The position numbers and the translations under genes were made by a program. From contig NZ_NSKH01000024.1 of the NCBI RefSeq assembly GCF_003144095.1, positions 265,198-329,197 on the forward strand: 64,000 bases of DNA, written 5' to 3'. The notes under the pieces are model-generated. The model had not been told where the DNA came from and did no database searches. It saw nothing but the letters and a program-made list of their open reading frames with translations. Positions within the stretch are counted from its first letter, which is position 1. Every line of letters begins with the position of its first letter. Origin of the DNA: Streptomyces sp. ICBB 8177. Lineage in GTDB: Bacteria > Actinomycetota > Actinomycetes > Streptomycetales > Streptomycetaceae. Positions 15,988 to 55,975 of this stretch are shown in pieces.

Positions 15988-16029
15988 CCGGGCGGCGGCA
16001 TCCACGCGGGTGCCGCCGCCCGGCTTTTT
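15988..16029 (+). terminator. intrinsic terminator with T-run
   Basis: A perfect 13-bp stem (CCGGGCGGCGGCA, 15988-16000, with 16011-16023) is followed by C and five T. It is one of the few canonical U-tract terminators in this window, and no annotated gene immediately precedes it. Confidence 0.8.
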
Positions 16030-16048
16030 GTCCACAACCTGTGGACAA
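16028..16048. promoter_or_regulatory. inverted pair of DnaA boxes
   Basis: TTGTCCACA (16028-16036) and TGTGGACAA (16040-16048) are two perfect copies of the streptomycete-preferred DnaA box facing each other across 3 bp. They sit upstream of the DUF1906 gene and could recruit DnaA, or be bound by another factor that uses this palindrome. Confidence 0.6.
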
Positions 16049-52291: not shown

Positions 52292-53104
52292 TCAGCCCAG
52301 CAGGCGTTCCAGGACGGCCGCGATGCCGTCCTCCTCGTTCGACGCGGTCACCTCGTCGGCGACCGCCTTGAGCGCCTCGTGCGCGTTGGCCATGGCGACG
52401 CCGTGCGCCGCCCAGCCGAGCATCGGGATGTCGTTGGGCATGTCCCCGAACGCGATGGTCCCCGCCGCCGTGACGCCCAGCCTGCGGGCGGCCAGCGACA
52501 GTCCGGTCGCCTTCGACAGGCCCAGCGGCAGCAGCTCCACCAGGCCCGCGCCCGCCATGACCACGCCGACCAGGCCGCCGACGGCCGCGGCGGCCGCCTC
52601 CGCGAGGGCGTCGTCGTCCAGCCCCGGGCACTGGATGAAGACCTTGCTGATCGGCTCCGCCAGCAGTTCCGCGATGTCGCTCACCTCGACGGCGGGCAGC
52701 TCGGGGACGAACCGGTAGCCCGGGCCGACCAGGAACGCCCCGTCGAGCCCGTCGCGCACCGCGGCGACCGCCAACGGCCCGGTCGCCGCCTCGATCTTGG
52801 CCAGCGCGGCCGCCGCGGTGCGCCGGTCCAGCGTCACCGAGGTCAGCAGCGTGCGCGAGCCGGCGTCGTAGACCTGGGCTCCTTGCGCGCACACCGCGAG
52901 CCCCCGGTAACCGAGGGCCTCGAAGACGTGGGCGGTACGGGAGACCGGGCGGCCGGTGACGATGATGTGCGCGGCGCCCGCCGCGGTGACCGCGGCGAGC
53001 GCCCGGCGCGAACGCTCCGAGACCGTGTGGTCGGCCCGCAGCAGCGTGCCGTCCAGATCGGTGGCGACCAGCCGGTACGGGAAGGAGCGCGCGTCGGCCG
53101 TCAC
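52292..53104 (-). CDS. HAD-family Cof-type phosphatase
   Basis: A 270-residue haloacid-dehalogenase phosphatase of the Cof/YbiV group (C2B cap), hydrolysing sugar phosphates or related metabolites. Motif I is [10 protein letters not shown] (nucleophile and acid/base aspartates), motif II IVTGRP, motif III lysine in [11 protein letters not shown], motif [16 protein letters not shown] 53104 overlaps the serS stop (GTGA), so it is translated together with serS; a housekeeping role is likely. Confidence 0.93.
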
Positions 53105-54390
53105 TTGGTGACCGGCTCCAGGACGTCACGGCCGCCCAGGTAGGGGCGCAGCACCTCGGGCACGAGCACCGAGCCGTCCGCCTGCTGGTGGTTCTCCAGC
53201 ACCGCGACGATGGTGCGGGCCAGGGCGCACAGGGTGCCGTTGAGGGTGGCGAGCGGGCGGGTGGCCTGCTTGCCGTCGCGCTCCTCGCGCACCCGGACCG
53301 AAAGGCGGCGGGCCTGGAACTCGTTGCAGTTCGAGGCCGAGGTCAGCTCGCGGTACTTGCCCTGGGTCGGGATCCACGCCTCGCAGTCGAACTTGCGCGA
53401 GGCCGAGGCGCCCAGGTCGCCGGTGGCCACGTCGATCACCTGGAACGGCAGACCGAGCGCGGACAGCCACTGCTTCTCCCAGGCCAGCAGCCGCTGGTGC
53501 TCCGCCTCGGCGTCCTCCGGCAGGACGTAGGAGAACATCTCCACCTTCTCGAACTGGTGGACCCGGAAGATGCCGCGGGTGTCCTTGCCGTACGTGCCCG
53601 CCTCACGGCGGAAGCAGGAGGAGAACCCGGCGTAGCGCAGCGGGAGTTGGCGGGCGTCGAGGATCTCGTCCATGTGGTACGCGGCGAGCGGGACCTCGGA
53701 GGTGCCGACCAGGTACAGGTCGTCCTTCTCCAGGTGGTAGACGTTCTCCGCGGCCTGGCCGAGGAAGCCGGTACCCTCCATCGCGCGCGGCTTGACCAGG
53801 GCGGGGGTGAGCACCGGGGTGAAGCCCGCCTCGGTGGCCTGCGCGATCGCCGCGTTGACCAGGGCCAGCTCCAGCAGGGCGCCGACGCCGGTCAGGTAGT
53901 AGAAGCGCGAGCCGGAGACCTTCGCGCCGCGCTCCATGTCGATCGCGCCGAGCCCCTGGCCGATCTCCAGGTGGTCCTTGGGCTCGAAGCCCTCGGCGGC
54001 GAAGTCGCGCGGGGTGCCGATCGTCTCCAGGACCGTGAAGTCCTCCTCGCCGCCGACGGGGACGTCGGGGTGGACGACGTTGCCGAGCGCGAGCAGCAGG
54101 CGCTGGGCCTCGGCGGCCGCCTCGTCCTGCTCGGCGTCGGCCGCCTTGACCTCGGCGGCCAGCTCGGAGGCGCGCTGGAGCAGCTCGGCCTTCTCGTCGC
54201 CGGTGGCCTTGGGGATGCGCTTGCCGAGGGTCTTCTGCTCGGCGCGCAGCTGGTCGAAGCGGGTGCCGGAGGACCTGCGCCGCTCGTCGGCGGAGAGCAG
54301 GGCGTCGACGAGGCCGACGTCCTCTCCACGGGCACGCTGGGAGGCGCGCACACGGTCGGGGTCCTCACGGAGCAGGCGAAGGTCAATCAC
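53101..54390 (-). CDS. serS: seryl-tRNA synthetase
   Basis: A 429-residue class IIa synthetase. The N-terminal coiled-coil arm that grips the long variable arm of tRNA-Ser covers about 30-100. Motif 2 is [20 protein letters not shown]. The serine-binding and motif 3 region lies near [16 protein letters not shown] and [19 protein letters not shown] 54390 is the start. It is followed by the overlapping HAD gene and preceded by a 650-bp non-coding region with DnaA boxes. Confidence 0.97.
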
Positions 54391-54541
54391 GGTGACAGGC
54401 TACCGGGCGAGGGGTGAGGCACGCGACAAGTTAAGTCGCCTATGAGGCGTTTTGCCGGTTTTGACAATCGGGTCGGAAAAGGCCGGATCGGCGGGAATGG
54501 GCGACGGTCAACCGAATTCCGCCCGTCCCCCTATGGTGTCA

Positions 54542-54557
54542 TCTCCCGTACGGGAGA
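54542..54557. promoter_or_regulatory. perfect 16-bp palindrome
   Basis: TCTCCCGTACGGGAGA, uninterrupted and fully symmetric, 29 bp before the first DnaA box. It is a likely binding site for a dimeric protein. Confidence 0.5.
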
Positions 54558-54585
54558 CGGGAGTTGGGGTGGCGGAACGGCGGAG

Positions 54586-54911
54586 TTATCCACAGGGGCT
54601 GGGGATTGTGCATTCGTTGTCCACAGGGTGTGTGTACGGACTGTGGATGTCGGAATCGATCATTCCGCGAAAGGGGAAGTGCGGGACCAATGATTCCCGG
54701 CTCCAACGTGCTTGACACTCACTTTCGGGTGAGATGTGTTCCCTCGGTGGGGTGGGGTGAGCGATTTGGGGTGACGGAGGCGGTCTTGCGGACGTGTGGG
54801 GTGGGCTGCGCAGATTGGGGCGGTTTGTCGACTGAGCGACCACGAGGCGGCTTGGCGTCATGTCGACTTGTCCCCAGGGTCGGCGTGGCCTGTGGATAAC
54901 CCGGTGGACAA
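54586..54911. promoter_or_regulatory. cluster of DnaA boxes outside oriC
   Basis: Perfect boxes: TTATCCACA (54586-54594, +), TTGTCCACA (54617-54625, +) and TGTGGATAA (54891-54899, -). One mismatch: TTGTCCCCA (54868-54876, +) and GGTGGACAA (54903-54911, -). Weaker: TGTGGATGT (54642-54650, -). They form two groups about 250 bp apart. No dnaA or dnaN gene is nearby, so this is not oriC; it may titrate DnaA or regulate local genes. Confidence 0.75.
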
Positions 54912-55039
54912 CGGGGCCGGCGCACGAGGTTGACGCGGAGGTTTGAAGGCGGGGGTTTAAGGCGCGAGGTTTGGCGGCGGGGAGCGGGCAAGCTGAAGGC
55001 TTCCGTGGGTGGCCGCGATCGGGGGCGCCGCCCCGGGGG

Positions 55040-55975
55040 TCAGATACGGCCGTCCAGCGCGCGGCTCAGCCAGTCCGCGGCCTCGGTGAACTCCGCGTCC
55101 GTCGTCCCCGGACGCACCTGCGGACGGATCTCGTCGGCCCGCGGATAGGAGCCGAGGAACCGCACCTTCGGGCAGATCCGCTTCAGCCCCATCAGCGCCT
55201 CGCCGACCCGGCGGTCGGTGATGTGGCCCTCCGCGTCGACGGAGAAGCAGTAACGGCCCAGGCCGCCGCCGGTCGGGCGGGACTCGATGCGCATCAGGTT
55301 CACCCCGCGCACGGCGAACTCCTGGAGCAGTTCCAGCAGCGCTCCGGGGTGGTCGTCGCCCAGCCAGACGACCGCCGAGGTCTTGTCGGCCCCGGTGGGC
55401 GCTGCGGGCCGCCCGGGCGGACCGACCAGCACGAAGCGGGTCTGGGCGTTCGCGGTGTCGTGGATCTCGGACACCAGCGGCTCCAGGCCGTAGCGCGCGG
55501 CGGCGAACTCGCCCGCGAAGGCACCGTCGTAGCGGCCCTCCTGCACCTGCCGGGCGCCGTCCGCGTTGGACGCGGAGGACTCCCACACCGCGTCCGGCAG
55601 GTGGGCGGCGAGCCAGTTGCGCACCTGGGGCTGGGCGACGGGGTGACCGGTGACGGTCTTGACGTCGGCCAGCGCGGTTCCCGGCCTGACCAGCAGCGCG
55701 AAGGCGATGGGCAGCAGCACCTCGCGGTAGATCATCAGGGGCGCGCCGGTGGCCAGTTCGTCCAGGGTGGCGTTGACCCCGCCCTCGACGGAGTTCTCGA
55801 TGGCGGCGAACGCGCCGGCGGCCTCGCCGCCCCGCACGGCGTCGAAGGCGGCGGGCACGGAGACCATCGGGACCAGTTCCCGCGTCCCGGACTCGGGCAG
55901 AGTCCGCAGGGCGGCCTCCGTGAAGGTCCCCTCGGGGCCGAGGTACGTGTAGCGGGAGGCGGACGAGGGCGTCAT
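55040..55975 (-). CDS. pheA: prephenate dehydratase
   Basis: A 311-residue enzyme converting prephenate to phenylpyruvate in phenylalanine synthesis. The catalytic domain starts YTYLGPEGTFTEAALRTL and contains the conserved AAIENSVEGGVNATLD and the threonine region TANAQTRFVLVG. A C-terminal ACT domain (GALLELLQEFAVRGVNLMRI, then ESRPTGGGLGRYCF) senses phenylalanine for feedback inhibition. Unlike the enterobacterial protein it has no chorismate mutase domain. ATG 55975. It is separated from the copper cluster by 121 bp on the same strand. Confidence 0.96.
   Translation of the reverse strand: MTPSSASRYTYLGPEGTFTEAALRTLPESGTRELVPMVSVPAAFDAVRGGEAAGAFAAIENSVEGGVNATLDELATGAPLMIYREVLLPIAFALLVRPGTALADVKTVTGHPVAQPQVRNWLAAHLPDAVWESSASNADGARQVQEGRYDGAFAGEFAAARYGLEPLVSEIHDTANAQTRFVLVGPPGRPAAPTGADKTSAVVWLGDDHPGALLELLQEFAVRGVNLMRIESRPTGGGLGRYCFSVDAEGHITDRRVGEALMGLKRICPKVRFLGSYPRADEIRPQVRPGTTDAEFTEAADWLSRALDGRI

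Follow-up and report, generated by a model that had tools for sequence, protein, structure and literature searches.

The window analysed here is the whole stretch of 64,000 nucleotides from Streptomyces sp. ICBB 8177 (G000:C18:265198-329197 in our numbering of genomes and contigs). It includes a gap, at positions 54391-55039, that lies downstream of pheA and upstream of serS, both of which are encoded on the minus strand. Three exact and two one-mismatch DnaA boxes are located within this gap at 54586-54911 (Table 1); throughout our counts an "exact" box is TTRTCCACA and a near box differs from it by one mismatch. The initial annotation had described the same five boxes in DNA of lower GC content, and with this definition the boxes were confirmed where it had placed them, as was the base composition: GC content is 61% in 54586-54911 and 64% in the gap, as against 73% in the whole window. 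A sixth, weaker box, B0, makes up two mirror-facing triplets, which in the direction of the genes read A1 (+), A2 (+), A3 (-), spacer, B0 (+), B1 (-) and B2 (-).

Table 1 The DnaA-box element between pheA and serS and its neighbours, in window coordinates. Fractions are of the 78 aligned gaps.
Feature	Position	Strand	Remarks
serS, serine--tRNA ligase (neighbour)	53101..54390	-	TIGR00414
near-invariant CCGGTAGCC block directly before the serS start	54391..54412	-	from the alignment of gaps
DnaA box B2, TTATCCACA	54586..54594	+	exact; in relatives TTGTCCACA (51/78) or TTATCCACA (17/78); absent from some relatives
DnaA box B1, TTGTCCACA	54617..54625	+	exact; in relatives TTATCCACA (61/78) or TTGTCCACA (12/78)
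weak DnaA box B0, ACATCCACA	54642..54650	-	two mismatches; TCCACA core 25 bp from B1
spacer between triplets	54651..54867		partly conserved blocks; RNA signal looked for, none found
DnaA box A3, TTGTCCCCA	54868..54876	+	one mismatch; itself the common form: TTGTCCCCA 51/78, TTATCCCCA 14/78
DnaA box A2, TTATCCACA	54891..54899	-	exact; TTATCCACA in 76/78
DnaA box A1, TTGTCCACC	54903..54911	-	one mismatch; variable in relatives
pheA, prephenate dehydratase (neighbour)	55040..55975	-	NF008865

The Streptomyces DnaA-box consensus quoted in a review is TT(G/C)TCCACA (PMC4285127). By this consensus only the box at 54617 is exact, and two of the three boxes that are exact by TTRTCCACA are TTATCCACA; even so, it is this form that A2 keeps in 76 of 78 aligned gaps. 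A 16-bp palindrome and a TTGACA had also been assigned to the cluster. Both exist, but the palindrome, TCTCCCGTACGGGAGA, is at 54542-54557 and so outside the interval of the boxes, and the TTGACA, at 54712-54717, differs from the family consensus. They look incidental, with no sign of any role in the element. Judged by eye, the CCGGTAGCC block may be part of the serS promoter; a scan for consensus promoters and terminators found nothing, the serS promoter included.

Genomic distribution and position relative to oriC

Allowing at most one mismatch, TTGTCCACA matches the window 11 times where 4.86 matches are expected, a number reached in one of 100 shuffles. The 6.33-Mb genome contains 39 copies of TTGTCCACA and 23 of TTATCCACA, compared with 11 and one of the respective reversed words. 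At least three exact boxes inside 320 bp occur at only three places in it, namely the serS-pheA gap, C18:388392 and C18:418660; when 62 sites were placed at random, any such place arose in one of 5000 trials. Contig C18, which bears oriC, holds 19 of the 62 exact sites, against 4.5 expected from its length.

The dnaA gene is at C18:441795-442817, and a dense box array adjoining it, at about C18:440875-441430, was taken as oriC. The serS-pheA cluster is thus not oriC itself; it is origin-proximal, at a distance of 121 kb.

Conservation of the boxes

The closest named pheA relatives of the window are Streptomycetaceae, and the gap was compared in the best 80 of 564 pheA matches. In all 80 loci serS comes next after pheA, and 466-1321 bp separate the two genes. 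Together with the window, 81 of 81 gaps carry two or more exact boxes, and four or more when one mismatch is allowed. Their 235 exact boxes compare with none of the reversed word and 0.4 in shuffles, and their 442 boxes within one mismatch with 12 reversed and 13.4 in shuffles.

Since these loci had been chosen for a close pheA, sampling was widened to a further set of 100 hand-picked genomes out of 147. Of the 15 non-family genomes 14 were included, and of the 131 remaining members of the family 86, mostly minus-strand and lower-identity matches and all under one genus label (g2) that we took as Streptomyces. In each of the 86 family genomes serS follows pheA and at least two exact boxes are present; 84 have at least four boxes within one mismatch, and there are 282 exact boxes versus no reversed ones. 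The 14 genomes from outside, which belong to two other families of the order, lack serS in the 2 kb that follow pheA and were left unscored for boxes; in one of them, G003, serS lies about 2.2 kb away.

In a sample of 15 genera, made up of 30 of 41 matching genomes of the family, two or more exact boxes follow pheA in 24 genomes. The other six, all from genera g120 and g123, lack any box, even with one mismatch allowed, in the 1.5 kb that follow pheA. Outside the family, none of 24 genomes has an exact box in serS and its flanks (mostly 1.5 kb on each side), where a few one-mismatch words occur. Among the relatives compared, the element is 46-67% identical to that of the window, so the boxes are conspicuous in otherwise diverged sequence. 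The initial annotation had looked to the gap in relatives for a check on its proposal, and in both gap sets boxes turn out to be kept, mostly at the same spacings, rather than unconserved.

The two gap sets overlap. They give 167 gaps, three of them without an anchor (L005, L050 and L120), and 160 distinct elements, among which near-identical ones remain.

Spacing of boxes and triplets

Spacing within the triplets was read from 78 aligned gaps, the set without three gaps that exceed 800 bp. The TCCACA core of B0 lies 25 bp from B1 in all 78, and 164 of the 167 gaps satisfy the rule for B0 used in the wider spacing analysis. A2 and A3 are separated by 25 bp in 56 of the 78 and by 23-24 bp in 13; in seven more the distance to the aligned box is 35-36 bp, and six of those carry another box 25 bp from A2. 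Box B2 is exact in 68 of the 78 gaps, and where it was found it lies 29-32 bp from B1 (144 of 147 elements). A1 is variable.

The distance between the triplets, from A2 to B1, takes preferred values. Among the 78 aligned gaps it is 256-261 bp in 45, 268-274 bp in 22, 278-282 bp in four and 288-290 bp in three; one or two gaps each fall at 201-202, 250 and 301 bp. The 160 distinct elements show the same peaks, with a few elements at 301-308 bp and a few at 202-217 bp. For 70 less-related elements the concentration of A2-B1 distances at a period of 10.5 bp is 0.65, a level above the maximum of 0.36 seen among 10,000 jittered sets; the 35 off-mode elements by themselves give 0.56, a value that no jittered set reached. 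The control distance on the pheA side gave 0.17, but that on the serS side gave 0.35 for a period of 10.5 bp and 0.53 for one of 11.5 bp, from which it follows that relatedness inflates the period values. The period is also not sharp, as A2-B1 scores are nearly equal at 10-11 bp. The window's own distance of 274 bp is about half a turn off the steps, in the interval from the 270 peak to the 280 peak, and four elements at 273 bp share this interval. Whole-turn phasing of the inter-triplet distance is a trend between genomes, short of a proven constraint, and the window itself is off-phase.

Other DnaA-box sites

Of the remaining places with at least three exact boxes in this genome, the one nearer to oriC (C18:418660-418847, L082:6661-6848) lies about 22 kb from oriC and has four exact boxes in the interval from a crgA-like gene, recognized by eye, to a rhomboid-like gene. 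All 30 such loci compared, out of 41 matching genomes, carry two or more exact boxes, and together they have 99 exact boxes versus no reversed ones. In the loci inspected the inner inverted pair of this cluster is 30-33, 42-43 or 55 bp apart. The cluster is possibly another of those published for S. coelicolor. At C18:388392-388459 (L081:11393-11460), three exact boxes with the same direction lie in 68 bp directly before paaN, beside a gene for a PaaH-like dehydrogenase. This site was rejected as oriC, as it adjoins paa genes and the oriC array adjoins dnaA. In the window itself, two exact TTGTCCACA boxes form a tight inverted pair, 3 bp apart, at 16028-16048, with overlapping open frames on both strands.

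Searched as an exact pattern, the B0-B1 geometry is present in 25 of 28 family genomes and in 11 of 268 others of the class, and the reversed pattern has three matches in the 296. Fifteen of the 27 other family genomes have a second 25-bp inverted pair beyond serS, at a distance of about 9-15 kb from the element; the genome of the window has no second match to the exact pattern. At L199:3484-3537 and at matching places in L200-L204, such a second pair is accompanied by a nearby TGATCCACA or TGGTCCACA word, and in L199 it adjoins an open reading frame that by eye resembles an RNA 2'-phosphotransferase. Of the eight genomes compared in genus g39 of family f19, six (G215, G241, G322, G329, G352 and G405) have the same 25-bp inverted pair on one contig with serS, from which it is about 9-25 kb away.

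Discussion

We propose that the serS-pheA element titrates DnaA close to the origin and corresponds to the D78-type DnaA-box cluster of S. coelicolor; judging from the sequence, this reading is probable (roughly 75%). The two triplets face each other over a spacer of about 220 bp. DnaA would bind each of them cooperatively and would in this way be kept from oriC. A locus 121 kb from oriC would be copied soon after initiation, and the doubled site could then draw off more DnaA and delay the next start.

Three clusters of S. coelicolor were reportedly named D78, H24 and H69 by Smulczyk-Krawczyszyn et al. (2006), who are said to have found an affinity of D78 for DnaA about eightfold above that of oriC, more frequent replication after deletion of D78 and slow growth with extra copies of it. 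We take these names to be those of cosmids and assume that cosmid D78 covers serS and pheA, which in S. coelicolor are SCO3961 and SCO3962. On this assumption and by synteny, the serS-pheA gap would be identical with D78. In favour of the link, the element is also carried by genome G098, likely of the S. coelicolor group, with no other group of at least three boxes in 80 kb around the gap. At gap position 147-174 (L173), inside the spacer, G098 has the exact 28-base ScbR2 site predicted for S. coelicolor serS in a published table, where the serS probe is EMSA-positive and has a fold change of 0.947 (PMC4595836).

According to the literature consulted, DnaA-box clusters near oriC repress untimely initiation in S. 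coelicolor (PMC5742627, PMC4585315, PMC10950094). The DnaA of this species is said to bind a single box weakly (PMC4285127), and a need for grouped boxes fits with this. The suggestion in the initial annotation of a replication-control locus is supported by the conservation of boxes and spacings and by published S. coelicolor clusters of like kind; DnaA binding and its effect here are predictions. Against titration stand the six genomes of two genera without boxes and the TTATCCACA boxes, which depart from the Streptomyces consensus. The strict spacing is a further point against plain titration, as simple titration needs no fixed spacing.

A loop between the triplets is possible and is set apart here as a bolder reading. 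The element would then be a defined DnaA complex and no passive sink, in which mirror-facing triplets about 25 helical turns apart are bridged by DnaA-DnaA contacts, held in whole-turn register across much of the family. It would belong to a group of conserved DnaA sites near the origin (serS-pheA, the crgA-rhomboid cluster and the 25-bp inverted pair beyond serS) that jointly time initiation. Such a bridge is conceivable because DnaA domain I contacts that link separate box clusters in the Streptomyces oriC are discussed in a 2026 paper. We offer this reading tentatively and hold it to be on the improbable side.

Strict box spacings and conserved spacer blocks, which suggest a defined complex, would also suit a datA- or DARS-like site, where DnaA on the triplets, perhaps together with a bending protein in the spacer, would undergo a change of nucleotide state beyond being held. 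The triplet distance in the window, 274 bp, is off the preferred steps, and we consider a site of this kind unlikely.

It is quite unlikely that DnaA acts at the cluster as a transcription regulator of serS. The cluster does lie upstream of serS in 81 of 81 and 86 of 86 gaps, and the probe upstream of serS that is EMSA-positive for ScbR2 in S. coelicolor (PMC4595836) is in keeping with regulation there. However, 195 bp separate the serS start from the nearest box, and in three Streptacidiphilus loci (L017, L048 and L076) about 1 kb lies between serS and the last box. At least two exact boxes are also kept in six of 12 genomes in which the 1.5 kb following pheA contain no serS, and serS outside the family is without an exact box in all 24 genomes. 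Regulation of serS as the main role is disfavoured because the boxes persist where serS is further off. On the same grounds, the link from translation and amino-acid genes to DnaA that the initial annotation had drawn found no support.

The gap could instead house a conserved gene for a small RNA or a small protein, the boxes being incidental. This would account for a partly conserved spacer and for the open frames in the gap, but we regard it as very improbable. Among 37 aligned sequences (the fold used 37 of 57 representative elements), none of 16 predicted pairs is changed on both sides, and these pairs join invariant boxes with one another. The gap has no Rfam match at threshold, one weak match being far below it. 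With no covarying pairs in the 37 sequences and no such match, a structured RNA was rejected; coding potential for a small protein in the gap was judged by frame length only.

The probability that a chance build-up of box-like words explains the cluster is negligible, for although DnaA boxes are short, this is opposed by the shuffles, the random placements, the reversed-word controls and the conservation in both gap sets.

Little is understood of how initiation is held back in filamentous bacteria that house many chromosomes in one compartment, and a putative DnaA site that retains its boxes and their spacings in most sampled genera offers a concrete target. Changes of spacing at one conserved place could tell simple titration, the reading preferred here, from a looped or catalytic complex.

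Comparison with known systems

The D78, H24 and H69 clusters of S. coelicolor are the closest comparison, as they likewise consist of several strong DnaA boxes outside oriC and are origin-proximal. For D78 the gene neighbourhood would also be the same if the cosmid of that name spans SCO3961-SCO3962. In our comparison these clusters are listed under a different genus. The other systems are likened to it by description. The B. subtilis clusters are origin-proximal like the serS-pheA element but belong to a different phylum; they too are described as repressing untimely initiation (Okumura et al. 2012, in PMC5742627, PMC4585315 and PMC10950094). The datA locus of E. coli is also a non-coding DnaA-box cluster away from oriC and is described as repressing untimely initiation (PMC5742627, PMC4585315), but it has other neighbour genes. 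The hallmark of datA is a hydrolysis of DnaA-ATP that depends on IHF. DARS1 and DARS2 of E. coli are again non-coding box clusters that act on DnaA; they are described as reactivating it (PMC4585315), whereas the effect of the Streptomyces clusters is repression.
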